This document shows positions 3,841 to 59,445 of a DNA stretch of 64,000 nucleotides, in pieces (the stretch's first letter is position 1; every line of letters starts with the position of its first letter). Source of the DNA: an uncultured Bacteroidales bacterium (GTDB lineage Bacteria > Bacteroidota > Bacteroidia > Bacteroidales > UBA932). The notes under the pieces were generated by a model. The model did no database searches. It saw nothing but the letters and a program-made list of their open reading frames with translations, and was not told the DNA's origin. Location: NCBI GenBank assembly GCA_944323345.1, contig CALUSC010000004.1:56822-120821 (forward strand). Reading direction: 5' to 3'. The position numbers and the translations under genes are program-made.

Positions 3841-3849
3841 CAGTCGCAT

Positions 3850-4006
3850 ATCTTCAGGGCAGGGTGTAATTCCCGACCGGCGGTAAAGTCCGCGAACTGA
3901 AGGTGAAGACCGAAATATGCCGGAGCTGGTCCGGATATGGAGTCTGAGCCTGATGTTGAACCGTTGGAACTACGGTACCGACAGTAAAGTCTGGATGGAA
4001 GAAGAT
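3850..4006 (+). promoter_or_regulatory. FMN riboswitch (RFN element)
   Basis: All signature blocks of the RFN aptamer are present in order. P1 is formed by ATCTTC (3850-3855) and GAAGAT (4001-4006). The conserved AGGGTGTAATTCCCGACCGG, then CGGTAAAGTCCGCGA, a variable arm near 3905-3950, and the 3' block ACCGACAGTAAAGTCTGGAT follow. FMN binding to this aptamer represses riboflavin synthesis or uptake genes. About 138 nt separate it from the start codon of the receptor. That spacer holds GC-rich hairpins (for example CGGCCG pairing near 4022-4045) but no terminator with a U-tract, so the expression platform, transcriptional or translational, is unclear. The only gene downstream is the TonB-dependent receptor. 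Confidence 0.95.
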
Positions 4007-4144
4007 GGATTGCATTGGATCCGGCCGTAAGTGCACGCGGCCGATGCCGGTGTCCGGACACCGCAGATTCATGCGACTTGTTGACTTTATCATTATCAAT
4101 GCCTTGAATTGTATGCTGAAAGTAACAGTTTAAGGTTTTTTTGT

Positions 4145-48102: not shown

Positions 48103-48110
48103 TATCTTTG
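48103..48110 (+). promoter_or_regulatory. -7 element (TATCTTTG) of the leu operon
   Basis: TATCTTTG lies 17 bp before the leader-peptide ATG. A one-mismatch -33 (TTAG at 48079-48082) has the right spacing. Transcription probably starts near 48117. Confidence 0.55.
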
Positions 48111-48127: not shown

Positions 48128-48178
48128 ATGACTACAGGACGCTCACTATCACTACGACTATTGCAGGATTTCAGCTGA
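48128..48178 (+). CDS. leuL: Leucine-rich leader peptide of the leu operon (attenuator)
   Basis: The 16-residue frame MTTGRSLSLRLLQDFS carries four leucines in six residues, three as CTA, a codon that is sparse by eye in the neighbouring genes. It lies between the operon promoter and a strong terminator (48233-48268) in front of leuA. This is the expected form of a leader whose translation stalls when charged tRNA-Leu is low, letting polymerase pass the terminator. A weak alternative hairpin pairs the CTACGACTAT region (48153-48161) with ATAGTATGTA (48194-48203), overlapping the control codons. It is assigned from composition and context; there is no homology evidence. Confidence 0.65.
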   Translation: MTTGRSLSLRLLQDFS

Positions 48179-48232
48179 TGGAACTCTGACGGGATAGTAT
48201 GTATAGTGTGAAAAATGAGTGCTATATTTATT

Positions 48233-48268
48233 GGCCTTCAGGGTTTGCCTTGGAGGCCTTTGTTTTTT
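48233..48268 (+). terminator. Attenuator terminator in the leu leader
   Basis: An 11-bp stem (48233-48243 with 48248-48258, including two G-U pairs) has a TTTG loop and is followed by TTTGTTTTTT. It lies 65 bp before the leuA ATG and 54 bp after the leader stop. Confidence 0.8.
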
Positions 48269-51939: not shown

Positions 51940-53001
51940 ATGAAAAAAACTATAGCAGTACTTCCGGGCGACGGTATCGGTCCGGAAATCATAAGACAGG
52001 CAGTCAAGGTCCTGGACGCAGTGGCTGTGAAATATTCACACACTTTTGAATACAGGTATGCAGATGTGGGCGCCTGCGCCATAGACAAGACGGGGAATCC
52101 CTATCCGCAGGCCACCCATGATATATGCATGACATCTGATTCCGTACTTTTCGGCGCGATAGGAGATCCTAAATATGATAATGATCCTGCCGCAAAGGTG
52201 CGTCCGGAACAGGGTCTTCTGGCCATGCGCAAGGCTCTGGGGCTGTTTGCTAATATACGTCCTGTAAAACCTTATCCGTCATTACTTTCTGCATCCCCGC
52301 TGAAAGATTCCATAGTGGACGGTGCGGATTTCATCGTAGTGAGGGAATTGACTGGCGGCATGTATTTCGGGGAGCCGCGTGGCCGCAACGAAGCCGGGGA
52401 CAAGGCCTTCGATACATGCGTATATTCCAGATCCGAGATAGAGAGGGTCGCAGATGTGGCTTTTGCCTATGCCGCCAGGCGCAGAGGCCGGGTGACATTG
52501 GTGGACAAGGCCAATGTCCTGGCTACATCGCGTCTGTGGAGAGAGACGGTGAAGTCTCTCCATGCCGAAAAATACAGCGGTATGCAGCTGGATTTCCTGT
52601 TTGTGGACAATGCCGCCATGAAGATGGTCTCGAATCCTCGCGACTTCGATGTGATTCTTACGGAAAACATGTTCGGAGACATACTCAGCGATCTGGCCGG
52701 GGTGGTGAACGGCTCCATCGGTCTTCTGCCGTCGGCATCGTCAGGAGCGGAACGCAGCCTGTATGAACCGATTCACGGTTCTTTCCCACAGGCCGCCGGC
52801 AAGAATATAGCGAACCCGATAGCCACTATCCTTTCCGCTGCCATGATGCTGGAGGACGCGTTCGGCGCTGTGGAGGAAGGCGCCGCAGTGAGAAAAGCCT
52901 GTGAAGATGCCATAGCCTCAGGCGTATGCACTCCCGATATATTTCCGGGAAGCAGGTACGGTACGGAGGAAACGGGTGACTTCATAGCCGGCCGTATATA
53001 G
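51940..53001 (+). CDS. leuB: 3-isopropylmalate dehydrogenase
   Basis: The 353-residue NAD-dependent oxidative decarboxylase has LPGDGIGPEIIRQAVKVLD, the substrate RELTGGMYFGEPRG, the DKANVLATSRLWRE region and VILTENMFGDILSDLAG (metal Asp). The PIHGSFPQAAGKNIANPIA block marks the cofactor site. It is the last leu gene; the ilv promoter follows about 50 bp later. Confidence 0.97.
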   Translation: MKKTIAVLPGDGIGPEIIRQAVKVLDAVAVKYSHTFEYRYADVGACAIDKTGNPYPQATHDICMTSDSVLFGAIGDPKYDNDPAAKVRPEQGLLAMRKALGLFANIRPVKPYPSLLSASPLKDSIVDGADFIVVRELTGGMYFGEPRGRNEAGDKAFDTCVYSRSEIERVADVAFAYAARRRGRVTLVDKANVLATSRLWRETVKSLHAEKYSGMQLDFLFVDNAAMKMVSNPRDFDVILTENMFGDILSDLAGVVNGSIGLLPSASSGAERSLYEPIHGSFPQAAGKNIANPIATILSAAMMLEDAFGAVEEGAAVRKACEDAIASGVCTPDIFPGSRYGTEETGDFIAGRI

Positions 53002-53052
53002 CAGGTCCTGAAAAAATCATCATAAAAATGAATAAGGAATAAAAATTTTTTG

Positions 53053-53060
53053 TAATTTTG
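53053..53060 (+). promoter_or_regulatory. -7 element (TAATTTTG) of the ilv operon
   Basis: TAATTTTG lies 32 bp before the ilv leader ATG, so the leader RNA would start near 53067. The -33 is not convincing. Read-through from leuB is also possible. Confidence 0.45.
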
Positions 53061-53091
53061 ACTTCCGGAAAATACAAGAGATTCCTCTGGT

Positions 53092-53175
53092 ATGATTTTA
53101 AACGGTAATATTTCCATTATTATTAGTGTGTTGGTGGTCGTCATCGCGGTCATCTCCATTATTATCGTTCCGTAG
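53092..53175 (+). CDS. ilvL: Ile/Val-rich leader peptide of the ilv operon (attenuator)
   Basis: The 27-residue frame begins [19 protein letters not shown] and holds ten isoleucines, six valines and two leucines, including runs ATT ATT ATT and GTG TTG GTG GTC GTC ATC. It ends at TAG 53173-53175. A Rho-independent terminator follows 33 nt later, and ilvD starts after it. This is the standard composition and position of an ilv leader peptide whose stalling senses charged tRNA-Ile, tRNA-Val and tRNA-Leu. It could alternatively be a tiny membrane peptide, but the terminator context makes that less likely. Confidence 0.78.
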
Positions 53176-53207
53176 TATCCAGGGAATCCTTCAGGTATAT
53201 ATTCATG

Positions 53208-53247
53208 CGCTTGCCTGCGACCGGATTCCGCAGGCAAGCGTTTTTTT
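53208..53247 (+). terminator. Attenuator terminator in the ilv leader
   Basis: A perfect 12-bp GC-rich stem (53208-53219 with 53229-53240) has a nine-base loop and seven T (53241-53247), 17 bp before the ilvD ATG. The loop and first 3' base (GGATTCC, 53223-53229) can instead pair exactly with GGAATCC at 53183-53189, an antiterminator-like alternative. The latter region also pairs with 53080-53090. Confidence 0.85.
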
Positions 53248-53264
53248 ATGGAGCATTTTATTTT

Positions 53265-55085
53265 ATGGAACTTAGAAGCAAGAAAAGCACATCCGGCAGA
53301 AAAATGGCTGGAGCGAGAGGGCTCTGGAGAGCAAACGGCATGAAAGAAGAACAGATCGGAAAACCGGTCATAGCGATAGTGAATTCATTTACCCAATTCG
53401 TGCCGGGACATGTGCATCTGCATGAAATAGGACAGCTGATAAAAAAACGGATTGAGGAACAGGGATGTTTTGCGGCCGAATTCGATACGGTGGCCATAGA
53501 CGACGGCATTGCCATGGGCCATGACGGCATGCTGTATTCCCTTCCGTCCAGAGATCTGATAGCGGACAGTGTGGAATATATGTGCAATGCGCATTGCGCG
53601 GATGCAATGATATGCATTTCGAACTGCGACAAGGTCACTCCCGGGATGCTCATGGCTGCCATGAGGCTGAATATCCCGACAGTCTTCGTATCCGGAGGAC
53701 CTATGGAAGCCGGCAGGGTGAACGGGAAGGATTACGACCTGATAGACATCATGGTGAAAGGAGCGGACGAGTCCGTATCGGACGAAGAGCTTGCTGCGCT
53801 GGAACGTATGGGATGTCCGACATGCGGGTGTTGTTCAGGAATGTTTACGGCGAACTCCATGAACTGTCTGTCGGAAGCCCTCGGAATGGCTCCTGTAGGA
53901 AACGGGACATTGCTCGCGACGCATGCAGAGAGAAAGGCGCTTTTCATGCGCGGGGCCGATCTGATAGTCAGGAATGCCAAGGCTTATTATTATGATGACG
54001 ACGAGTCCGTACTGCCGCGTTCCATCGCCACGAGGGCGGCTTTCATGAATGCCATGTCTCTCGACATAGCAATGGGTGGCTCTACGAATACGGTACTTCA
54101 TCTGCTGGCCATTGCGAATGAAGCAGGAGTGGATTTCAAGATGAAAGATATAGACGGGCTTTCGCGCCGGATACCGGTACTTTGCAAAGTGGCTCCGAAC
54201 TGCAGCTATCACATCCAGGATGTGAACAGGGCAGGCGGAATCATGGGTATCCTCGGAGAGCTGGACCGCGGAGGTTTCCTCGACACATCAGTGTCCCGTG
54301 TGGATTACAGGACGCTGGCTGAAGCCATCGATGAAAATGACATCATGAGACCTTCTGCGAAGCCTGCTTCGAAAAAGAAATATCTGGCGGCTCCGTCCTG
54401 GACCCGCACGATAGAGCTTGGTGCATGCGAGGACATTTATCCGGAACTGGATACAGACAGGACAGCCGGATGTATCAGGGACGTGGCTCATGCTTATTCC
54501 AAAGACGGAGGCCTCGCCGTGCTTTATGGCAATATAGCCATGGACGGCTGTATAGTCAAGACTGCCGGGGTGGACGAGAGCATTCTGAAATTCCGCGGGC
54601 CTGCAAAAGTCTTTGAATCGCAGGAGGAGGCATGTGAAGGCATTCTCGGCGGGGCAGTGCAGTCCGGTGATGTGGTGGTGATTTCGTATGAGGGCCCGAA
54701 GGGAGGTCCCGGCATGCAGGAAATGCTTTATCCGACATCTTATATCAAAAGCCGTCATCTCGGAAAGGAATGCGCCCTGATTACCGACGGACGTTTCAGC
54801 GGAGGCACTTCCGGCCTGTCCATCGGCCATATTTCTCCTGAAGCCGCCTCCGGCGGCAATGTAGGGCTGCTCAGGGACGGGGATATGATTTCGATAGACA
54901 TCAGTTCGCGTTCCATCGAAGCTGAAGTGTCTGAGGAGGAGTTTGCATCCAGGCGGAAAGAAGAGATGTCACGCGGCGATGAGGCTTTCACTCCGCATTT
55001 CAGAAAGCGCGAGATTTCAAAGGCGTTGAAGGCTTATGCGAAGCTCGTTTCGTCTGCGGACAAGGGTGCTGTCAGGCTGGTTTAG
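53265..55085 (+). CDS. ilvD: Dihydroxy-acid dehydratase
   Basis: The 606-residue iron-sulfur enzyme dehydrates dihydroxy acids to the Ile and Val keto acids. Key blocks are [50 protein letters not shown] (cluster cysteines) and, near the end, [19 protein letters not shown] frame reaching 53205 would begin inside the terminator, so ATG 53265 is used. Confidence 0.97.
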
Positions 55086-57499: not shown

Positions 57500-58549
57500 A
57501 TGGCAAAAATGAATTTCGGCGGAGTCGAGGAAAATGTAGTGACCCGCTCTGAATTTCCGCTTGAAAAAGCGAGGGAAGTGTTGAAGAATGAAACTATCGC
57601 AGTCCTTGGATATGGCGTCCAGGGGCCTGGACAGTCATTGAACCTGAAGGACAATGGTTTCAATGTGATAGTAGGACAGCGAAAAGGCTCGAAGAGCTGG
57701 GACAAGGCTGTCGAGGACGGCTGGGTGCCGGGTGAAACCCTGTTCGAGATCGAGGAGGCTTGCGAGAAAGCCACTATCATAGAATTCCTGCTCTCCGATG
57801 CAGGCCAGATTTCAGCGTGGCCGGTGGTGAAGAAACATCTGACAGCCGGCAAGGCCCTGTATTTTTCACATGGCTTCGGCATCACTTACAATGACAAGAC
57901 AGGCATCATCCCGCCGGCCGATGTGGATGTGATCATGGTCGCTCCTAAGGGGTCTGGTACTTCTCTGCGCCGTCTTTTCCTTCAGGGCAAGGGTATCAAT
58001 TCTTCATACGCGATTTATCAGGATGCTACAGGAAAGGCTTATGACAGAGTCATTGCCCTGGGAGTCGGTGTAGGTTCAGGCTATCTGTTCGAGACCACCT
58101 TCAAACGCGAGGTGTATTCTGACCTGACAGGGGAGAGAGGTACGCTGATGGGAGCTATCCAGGGTATCTTCGCAGCACAGTATCAGGTGCTCCGTGAAAA
58201 CGGCCACACTCCTTCCGAGGCATTCAACGAGACTGTGGAGGAACTCAGCCAGAGCCTTATGCCTCTTATAGCAGAAAACGGCATGGACTGGATGTATGCG
58301 AACTGCTCCACTACGGCACAGCGCGGCGCGCTCGACTGGTGGAAGAAATTCAGGGATGCCACATTGCCTGTATTCAATGACTTGTACAACAGTGTGAAGA
58401 CCGGAAACGAGGCTCAGATTTCCATCGATTCGAACAGCAAGCCTGACTATCGCGAGAAGCTGAATGCTGAACTGAAGGAACTGCATGAGAGCGAGATGTG
58501 GCGTACAGGCGAGACTGTCCGCTCCCTCCGTCCTGAGCGCAGCAAATAG
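57500..58549 (+). CDS. ilvC: Ketol-acid reductoisomerase
   Basis: The 349-residue enzyme has the NADPH-binding LGYGVQGPGQSLNLKDNG and the phosphate loop VGQRKGSKSW. It also has VAPKGSGTSLRRLF and the metal-binding DLTGERGTLMGAIQG with ELSQSLMPLIAENGMDWMY. Its Arg/Ser loop favours NADPH. It carries out the second common step for Ile and Val. The stop shares one base with the next GTG start. Confidence 0.96.
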   Translation: MAKMNFGGVEENVVTRSEFPLEKAREVLKNETIAVLGYGVQGPGQSLNLKDNGFNVIVGQRKGSKSWDKAVEDGWVPGETLFEIEEACEKATIIEFLLSDAGQISAWPVVKKHLTAGKALYFSHGFGITYNDKTGIIPPADVDVIMVAPKGSGTSLRRLFLQGKGINSSYAIYQDATGKAYDRVIALGVGVGSGYLFETTFKREVYSDLTGERGTLMGAIQGIFAAQYQVLRENGHTPSEAFNETVEELSQSLMPLIAENGMDWMYANCSTTAQRGALDWWKKFRDATLPVFNDLYNSVKTGNEAQISIDSNSKPDYREKLNAELKELHESEMWRTGETVRSLRPERSK

Positions 58550-59445
58550 TGCAGGCGAAAGAATATATTGATCCGGAAGCCGGAAAGGTGCTGCTGGTGA
58601 AAAGCGCTGCCAGCCGCAGAGTTTCCATCCGGGTGCATCCGGCCGACGGGGTCAAAGTCATTGTTCCGAGGTCCTTGTCTTATGACGAGGGCCTCAGGTT
58701 TTTCATGCTCAAGCGGGACTGGGTCATCTCCACCATTGCGAAGCAGAAAAAGAAGATTTCCGAGGCGGTGGAGGAAGGAAAGGCGGTGGCATTGCTCCGG
58801 GACGGAGCAGCGGTGAATACTCTTCTGTCGGAGATCATTTTCAGAAGGGGAGCGGAGAATGGAAGCCGGGAGTCTGTTTCGATGACAGTGAAAACAGAGC
58901 AGGTGGAGGATGTGAAGATAACCGGACGGACATTTCTGTCATTGGACAGGCCTCTGTTCAGGAAGGTATTGACGTACTCGGGAAAATTGCCCCGTGAAGG
59001 GGCACCTGAACTGGATCATCTTCTCAGACAGGCATTGGCCGAAGTCCTGAGGACGGAGGCTAAACTTATTCTGCCGAAAAGACTGGCATTTTTCGCATCG
59101 CGTTTCGGGTTCAGCTGCGGGAAAGTCACCGTCAAGCACAACTCCTCGAACTGGGGAAGCTGTTCAGCCCGGGGAAATATAAACCTGAATCTGAATCTGG
59201 TGCGTCTGCCTGAACCTTTGTGCGATTATGTGATTCTTCATGAACTGTGCCATCTGAGGCATCCTGACCATGGGCCTGCGTTTCACGACCTTCTGGAAAA
59301 ACTGTGTACGGACAATATCATGCGTCTGGCAGGAAACGGGGACAGGTCTGTGACAGAGCTTGTGAAGAAAATCAACTCCAGTCGCTCAGCCCAGCCTGTG
59401 CACAGGACGCTGGAGCGTGCCATGAAGGGATACCGCCTGGTGTGA
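58549..59445 (+). CDS. YgjP/DUF45-type zinc metallopeptidase
   Basis: The 298-residue protein starts at GTG, overlapping the ilvC stop by one base. It has the YgjP-like N-terminal fold (VSIRVHPADGVKVIVPRSLS) and the DUF45 block NSSNWGSCSARGNINLNLNL followed by the zinc motif HELCHLRHPDHGPAFH. Substrate unknown. Coupling to the ilv operon is probably read-through and not functional. Confidence 0.88.
   Translation: MQAKEYIDPEAGKVLLVKSAASRRVSIRVHPADGVKVIVPRSLSYDEGLRFFMLKRDWVISTIAKQKKKISEAVEEGKAVALLRDGAAVNTLLSEIIFRRGAENGSRESVSMTVKTEQVEDVKITGRTFLSLDRPLFRKVLTYSGKLPREGAPELDHLLRQALAEVLRTEAKLILPKRLAFFASRFGFSCGKVTVKHNSSNWGSCSARGNINLNLNLVRLPEPLCDYVILHELCHLRHPDHGPAFHDLLEKLCTDNIMRLAGNGDRSVTELVKKINSSRSAQPVHRTLERAMKGYRLV

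Follow-up and report, generated by a model that had tools for sequence, protein, structure and literature searches.

Does the short, Ile/Val/Leu-rich reading frame that precedes ilvD in an uncultured Bacteroidales bacterium control the genes behind it, and what would a ribosome have to cover there to throw the switch? In the enterobacterial attenuators (trp, ilvGMEDA, leu, his), a short open reading frame (ORF) rich in codons for the product of the operon is combined with a terminator and with an antiterminator strand located after the ORF. A preliminary description of the locus had recognized a textbook attenuator layout, in which three segments of the RNA pair in competing ways. Here, the leader is examined within a 64 000-nucleotide stretch of contig CALUSC010000004.1 (the window), and alongside its counterparts in other genomes. 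Judged by these sequence comparisons, it represents a known kind of switch and is very probably a real attenuator.

Anatomy of the ilvD leader

The genes surrounding the leader are arranged in the order leuA, leuC, leuD, leuB, ilvD, ilvB, ilvN, ilvC. Pfam matches back the identities of leuA, leuB, ilvD, ilvB, ilvN, and ilvC; leuC and leuD were assigned from their reading frames. Named relatives, identified through ilvD, are mainly Bacteroidales among the matches listed. The features of the leader, all on the plus strand, are as follows.

Between the end of leuB (53001) and the start of ilvD (53265), plus strand: self-contained leader
53053–53060, plus strand: promoter box TAATTTTG (TAnnTTTG), 31 nt upstream of the leader ATG
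53080–53090, plus strand: strand A, the equivalent of strand 1, immediately 5′ of the start codon; partner of B
53092–53175, plus strand: leader ORF of 27 sense codons, with putative Ile/Val control codons
53101–53110 with 53160–53169, plus strand: ORF-internal helix, from a predicted fold of the focal sequence only
53179–53195, plus strand: strand B, just 3′ of the stop codon; partner is A or C
53207–53247, plus strand: intrinsic terminator (stem 53208–53219/53229–53240, G-U pair 53207/53241, loop 53220–53228, T run 53241–53247)
53214–53229, plus strand: strand C, the end of the terminator 5′ arm plus the loop; partner of B
53265–55085, plus strand: ilvD, the first gene after the leader (Pfam ILVD_EDD)
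55173, 56887, and 57500 (starts), plus strand: ilvB, ilvN, and ilvC, downstream of ilvD (Pfam TPP_enzyme, ALS_ss_C, and KARI)

The sequence TAnnTTTG is presumably the −7 promoter box of the Bacteroidota type. Both the 27-codon frame and the terminator at 53208–53240 that had been described before ilvD are confirmed: 18 of the 27 residues are Ile, Val, or Leu, and the terminator stem has 12 perfect pairs (−23.5 kcal/mol) with a nine-base loop and T7. This loop exceeds the limit of eight in a simple terminator scan, which missed the hairpin. When all 450 ATG-started ORFs of 15–45 codons on both strands of the window were ranked by Ile/Val/Leu fraction, the leader ORF came first with 0.67, the runner-up having 0.50.

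On recomputation, the coordinates and pair counts given previously for the two competing pairings proved exact. In the first, 53080–53090 (GATTCCTCTGG) pairs with 53179–53188 (CCAGGGAATC) through ten pairs and one bulge (A:B, −13.0 kcal/mol); in the second, 53183–53189 forms seven perfect pairs with 53223–53229 (B:C, −9.3 kcal/mol). A further B:C pairing, beyond those described previously, connects 53192–53195 with 53214–53217, so that the antiterminator occupies the end of the terminator 5′ arm as well as the loop. The predicted fold of 53067–53250 has −60.9 kcal/mol (z −5.19), equalled by 0 of 200 shuffled sequences.

Other features were noted in the window. A gene at 58549–59445 follows ilvC, and a frame with a similar start also follows ilvC in two related genomes, G084 and G275; from its HELCHLRHPDHG motif, we take the product to be a YgjP/M48-like hydrolase. 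A terminator-like hairpin (58668–58695) lies within this gene. Further away, Rfam identifies an FMN riboswitch at 3846–4010 (RF00050, 106.7 bits).

Leaders upstream of ilvD in other genomes

Three sets of loci were compared. In a set of 81 related genomes, 33 yielded ilvD, and 30 loci were retained, window included. From the genus, 400 genomes sampled out of a larger group were searched; 146 of them contained ilvD, and 28 new loci were retained. The named set comprised 80 ilvD loci among the matches listed, 64 of which were scanned for an ORF with a terminator, the 16 loci from outside the Bacteroidota being excluded. Carriers were defined by an Ile/Val/Leu-rich ORF (seven of ten residues) together with a terminator. 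By this definition, 70 loci, including the window, carry such a leader upstream of ilvD: 23/30 in the related set, 21/64 of those scanned in the named set, and 26/28 in the genus set. A short ORF with a run of end-product codons is therefore kept in relatives, with an intrinsic terminator between it and the first structural gene. In one carrier (L018), the hairpin scored as a terminator is actually the B:C pairing, and in another (L132) the start codon used is internal, the best-scoring start having been chosen.

Carriers among the named records include Bacteroides, Phocaeicola, Odoribacter, Heminiphilus, and Labilibaculum. In an Alistipes record and in B. graminisolvens, the ORF was found and a terminator went undetected; loci with the ORF and no detected terminator include L043 and L064. 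The ORF criterion alone (7/10) was reached by 24 of the 80 named loci, among them a 54-codon frame in a record that is Acidobacteria by title (L085) and a frame that overlaps ilvD (L094). None of seven Prevotella-type records (L070, L073, L076, L077, L078, L081, and L089) reached it. Seven of the 30 related loci and most non-carriers of the named set are without such a leader, and six more genus genomes (L194–L199) have no such ORF. As a separate observation, ilvD was matched in only 146 of the 400 genus genomes and in 66 of the 150 more complete ones, and synthesis of branched-chain amino acids may be patchy within the genus.

For quantitative comparisons, two loci were removed (L034, the same leader as L009, and L139, a near copy of L005), leaving 68 leaders. 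In 59 of these, including all 16 of the focal clade (the window and 15 relatives), a TAnnTTTG box occurs no more than 60 nt from the leader ATG; mononucleotide shuffles gave a mean of 2.7 and a maximum of 8. The peptides vary among the 70 loci; what they have in common is mainly their richness in Ile, Val, and Leu. In the 16 focal-clade leaders, which were selected for such an ORF, 264 of 424 residues are Ile, Leu, or Val. Departures from the majority sequence number 72, 43, and 99 at codon positions 1, 2, and 3; 59 codon departures are synonymous and 80 nonsynonymous, 30 of the latter being exchanges within Ile/Leu/Val.

Preference of the strands for their own partners

Each strand was paired with the partner from its own leader and with those from other leaders, and the difference was assessed by 20 000 permutations. 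Over the 68 leaders, B:C is strongly favoured within leaders (own −15.35 versus other −11.44 kcal/mol, z −10.7, 0/20 000 permutations), and the 5′ untranslated region (UTR) that contains A favours its own B less strongly (z −5.2, 0/20 000). The controls gave z +1.7 for A:C, +1.6 for ORF:C, and −1.6 for the region upstream of the promoter with B. The preliminary description had staked its reading on a short ORF and pairings kept in orthologous leaders, and on both counts it held up.

Relatedness affects the two pairings differently. With one leader for each cluster of shared 8-mers (n = 37), B:C retains a z of −9.5 and A:B one of −3.5 (5/20 000), with A:C at +0.9. Under a stricter grouping (n = 19), B:C remains at −7.5, and A:B (−1.0) is no better than the control A:C (−1.5). 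For the 52 leaders outside the focal clade, A:B has z −2.6 (112/20 000); for the 16 within it, z −3.2 (15/20 000). Within the focal clade, B:C shows no variation (z +0.4) and is thus uninformative, so that its support comes from comparison between clades; at that level, an antiterminator pairing that excludes the terminator has been kept despite sequence change. For A:B, changes on both sides were found at 8 of 14 B positions, with pairs fitted for each leader. Because one leader (L118) was anchored on the wrong AATCC, counts over 16 leaders, for these changes and for the folding described below, hold 15 sound rows.

Position of strand 1

To map the strand that sequesters B, sliding 30-nt windows were tested against it. 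A preference for the leader's own B is also present in the initial 45 nt of the ORF (z −6.6). In the 52 leaders outside the focal clade, the preference peaks at +0 to +30, the first ~10 codons, with z −8.9 (−7.4 with one leader per cluster, n = 36); in these 36 leaders, the 5′ UTR likewise gives a weak signal (at −30 to 0, z −2.4). In the 16 leaders of the focal clade, the peak lies at −30 to 0 (z −3.4, −14.8 kcal/mol) and −20 to +10 (z −3.6, −15.5 kcal/mol), weakens at −10 to +20 (z −1.7, mean −12.2 kcal/mol), and elsewhere no position beats z −0.5 (means −6.4 to −11.2 kcal/mol). Of the 16 focal-clade leaders, 13 pair B more strongly with A than with the ORF, as do 5 of the 52 others, in a comparison where the longer ORF stretch favours ORF:B.

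The textbook layout claimed at the outset therefore stands for the ORF, the terminator, and the antiterminator, and fails on one point: among focal-clade leaders, the signal for sequestering B peaks at −30 to +10 and not within the ORF. Strand 1 of this clade appears to occupy the ribosome-loading site of the 5′ UTR at the start codon, so that a ribosome stalled on the Ile/Val codons would leave it uncovered.

A stretch resembling GGTATGTA recurs 3′ of B in many Bacteroidales leaders (e.g. L006, L016, and L030). It was considered as a pause site and set aside, since it pairs with early leader codons in several leaders, such as L016 and L030; we take it to be a probable part of the strand 1 pairing.

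A proposed cycle and folding with a masked ribosome

We consider it highly likely that the leader is a ribosome-mediated transcription attenuator with its own promoter, which controls ilvDBNC according to the availability of charged tRNA for Ile and Val. From the anatomy and the pairing preferences, we infer the individual steps of its cycle, its response to starvation, and the way in which A stays off B during a stall. When the leader is untranslated, or the ribosome has departed, A at the start codon would pair with B and the terminator would form. A ribosome at the stop codon would cover B, and the terminator would form in this case too. With ribosomes stalled on the Ile/Val codons, B would pair with C (the end of the terminator 5′ arm and the loop), the terminator would be disrupted, and RNA polymerase would enter ilvD. 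The location of A in the 5′ UTR suggests two ways of keeping it off B: a second ribosome, trailing the stalled one, might occupy the start codon, or the stall might melt the ORF-internal helix (53101–53110/53160–53169), which in the predicted fold of the focal sequence lengthens A:B if no ribosome is on the ORF. This stall step is conjecture.

The cycle was compared with folds computed to the end of C, with the ribosome represented by a mask of 14 nt upstream and 17 nt downstream or, alternatively, of 12 nt on each side. In the focal leader under the 14/17 mask, A:B has a probability of 0.90 and B:C of 0.10 in the absence of a ribosome. B:C rises to 0.99 with a ribosome at the start codon and to 0.79 on codons 7–11 (the Ile tract), falls to 0.10 on codons 12–18 (the Val tract, A:B ~0.90), and reaches 0.82 on the last four codons. 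On the stop codon it is 0.00 with the 14/17 mask and 0.85 with the 12/12 mask; in a separate masked fold of this position, the 53192–53195:53214–53217 half of the antiterminator persists (0.78). Thus, the earlier proposal that A:B favours termination and B:C breaks it is borne out in the focal fold for the free leader and the start codon; it does not extend to stalls on the Val tract, which give A:B, depends on the footprint at the stop codon, and has mixed results among the 16 leaders when no ribosome is present.

For these 16, the mean probability without a ribosome is 0.54 for B:C and 0.44 for A:B; B:C exceeds A:B in nine of them, and in three if C is made one base shorter. A ribosome at the start codon gives a mean B:C of 0.71, the highest of any position tried (14/17 mask, C + 7, with L118 unsound), which is high partly because A is masked there by construction. 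At the stop codon, the mean B:C is 0.04 (14/17 mask). The equilibrium fold of the full leader contains the terminator under every mask, and antitermination would therefore have to be kinetic.

In these models, the focal leader appears to match the cycle without a ribosome, at the start codon, on the Ile tract, and at the stop codon with the long footprint. Stalls on the Val tract would not match unless something is added, for example a second ribosome at the start codon. Its relatives do not all fold in one way, and the step from no translation to A:B is not general.

Codon content and operon layout

The leuA gene of the window has a leader of its own, with these features.

48103–48110, plus strand: −7 box TATCTTTG of the leuA leader
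48128–48178, plus strand: leuA-leader ORF MTTGRSLSLRLLQDFS, with Leu codons
48180–48248, plus strand: candidate antiterminator, ~48180–48192 with ~48234–48248 (−14.3 kcal/mol)
48233–48268, plus strand: terminator, stem 48233–48258, with a T-rich tail

By its sequence, the leuA leader shares the design of the ilvD leader, with Leu codons. A first comparison included 18 leuA loci, 16 from genomes with an ilvD leader and the other two from G084 and G275. Among the former, 14 of the 16 leuA leaders can be read in the stretch examined, the other two being cut off, and each of the 14 has at most two Ile plus Val residues. In G084 and G275 (loci L126, L127, L154, L157, L201, and L202), leuACDB-ilvDBNC forms one run; leuB abuts or overlaps ilvD, and there is no ilvD leader. 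Their leuA leaders contain four and six Ile plus Val residues (MRNIINISILSLLRNFGS and MHNIIVISILSLLRNFIS), whereas the others are nearly Leu-only. In 11 more genomes with separate leaders, the leuA leader has at most one Ile or Val when read from the start nearest to the Leu run. G013 breaks the rule: ilvD and leuA each have a leader, and the one before leuA contains five Ile and one Val. In reading these leaders, a Leu-rich frame was preferred over other frames (e.g. L140 and L168), and upstream starts in L164 and L166 would raise the Ile plus Val count to as many as three and two.

The ilvD leaders themselves vary in a similar manner. The share of Leu among Ile, Leu, and Val has a median of 0.42 where leuA lies downstream (n = 7; 3.1–3.5 kb away on the same strand, a single operon being presumed from the distance) and 0.18 (n = 27) where a separate leader precedes leuA, a difference with p = 2.6e-4, uncorrected for relatedness. 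L193 was dropped from this comparison, its peptide being that of L191, and G013, G025, and G044 belong to neither group. With the exception of G013, the codon content of the leader appears to track the genes behind it, and this is counted as support for the attenuator.

Alternative explanations

The unusual position of strand 1 permits other accounts of the focal clade. Its leader may have been rewired, with strand 1 shifted out of the leader codons and onto the ribosome-loading site, such that an occupied start site (a queued second ribosome) would throw the switch and the output would be the AND of active initiation and scarcity of Ile or Val; we offer this elaboration tentatively, and regard it as rather doubtful. 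Another account, in which A over the start-codon region simply reads initiation on the leader and the Ile/Val codons matter less, seems unlikely. It would agree with a B-pairing signal that falls around the ATG with none inside the ORF, and with the masked folds in which a ribosome at the start codon, where A is hidden by construction, gives the most antiterminator. Against it, the Ile/Val tract is kept in all 16 focal-clade leaders, themselves chosen for having such an ORF, and the codons of leuA leaders vary with operon content, which a codon-blind sensor would not need.

The remaining accounts dispense with attenuation, and were rejected following negative Rfam and Pfam searches. That the short frame codes for a working small membrane protein, with the terminator serving merely to separate leuB from ilvD, is very improbable: the peptide is indeed hydrophobic and similar among close relatives, but across the 70 loci it is mainly the Ile/Val/Leu richness that persists, the RNA strands favour their own partners, composition tracks operon content, and the peptide has no Pfam match (a weak test for a 27-residue query). 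Likewise, a strongly structured leader with a terminator could be a riboswitch or T-box with an incidental short ORF, a reading that we consider scarcely credible, given that an Ile/Val/Leu ORF recurs upstream of ilvD. At the leader, every Rfam family stays below its gathering score, T-box and riboswitch covariance models have no match there, and the only Rfam match up to E 1 in 53000–53300 is HOTAIR_2 (53001–53036, E 0.7), far below the gathering score. The ribosome-mediated attenuator remains the preferred explanation.

Relationship to known leader-peptide systems

The ilvD leader resembles the enterobacterial attenuators in its product-codon ORF, its terminator, and the antiterminator strand behind the ORF, and differs from them in phylum. 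Compared with the enterobacterial form as generally understood, the strand that sequesters B in the focal clade is found not in the ORF but at the start codon, within the 5′ UTR, and the antiterminator of the ilvD leader takes up mainly the loop of the terminator together with the end of the 5′ arm. Work by Lopatovskaya in 2010 may, reportedly, already cover Bacteroidota.

Within the same phylum, clues to leader-peptide attenuation before amino acid biosynthesis operons come from Flavobacterium psychrophilum (PMC9723704); the term ‘ilv’ is absent from the main text of that study, and the relevant passage contains no pairing analysis. In B. thetaiotaomicron, short ORFs occur within long 5′ UTRs (PMC7366714). 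In the Actinobacteria, candidate ilvB leaders likewise have an Ile/Val/Leu-rich ORF and a terminator before ilv genes, according to the portion consulted of PMC1262725. In those leaders, the candidate terminator and the codon run overlap, whereas the Bacteroidales ilvD leader has an antiterminator strand between ORF and terminator. Altering the candidate control codons of Streptomyces coelicolor ilvB had no effect (PMC1262725), a precedent that may count against a codon-sensing attenuator. In 2010, the authors of one report stated that, before their own result in Firmicutes, they were aware of no leader-peptide system shown beyond the Proteobacteria and Actinobacteria (PMC2965389). No description of a Bacteroidota ilvD leader was found in the titles, abstract openings, and passages covered, which took in parts of PMC4833913 and few subscription journals. 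As far as we have seen, the comparative support in Bacteroidales and the apparently displaced strand 1 of the focal clade are new.

The results provide comparative support for a leader-peptide system before ilvD in many Bacteroidales, together with one case in which codons appear to track the content of the operon. The displaced strand 1 would offer a direct test of which part of such a leader a ribosome has to cover for the switch to be thrown.
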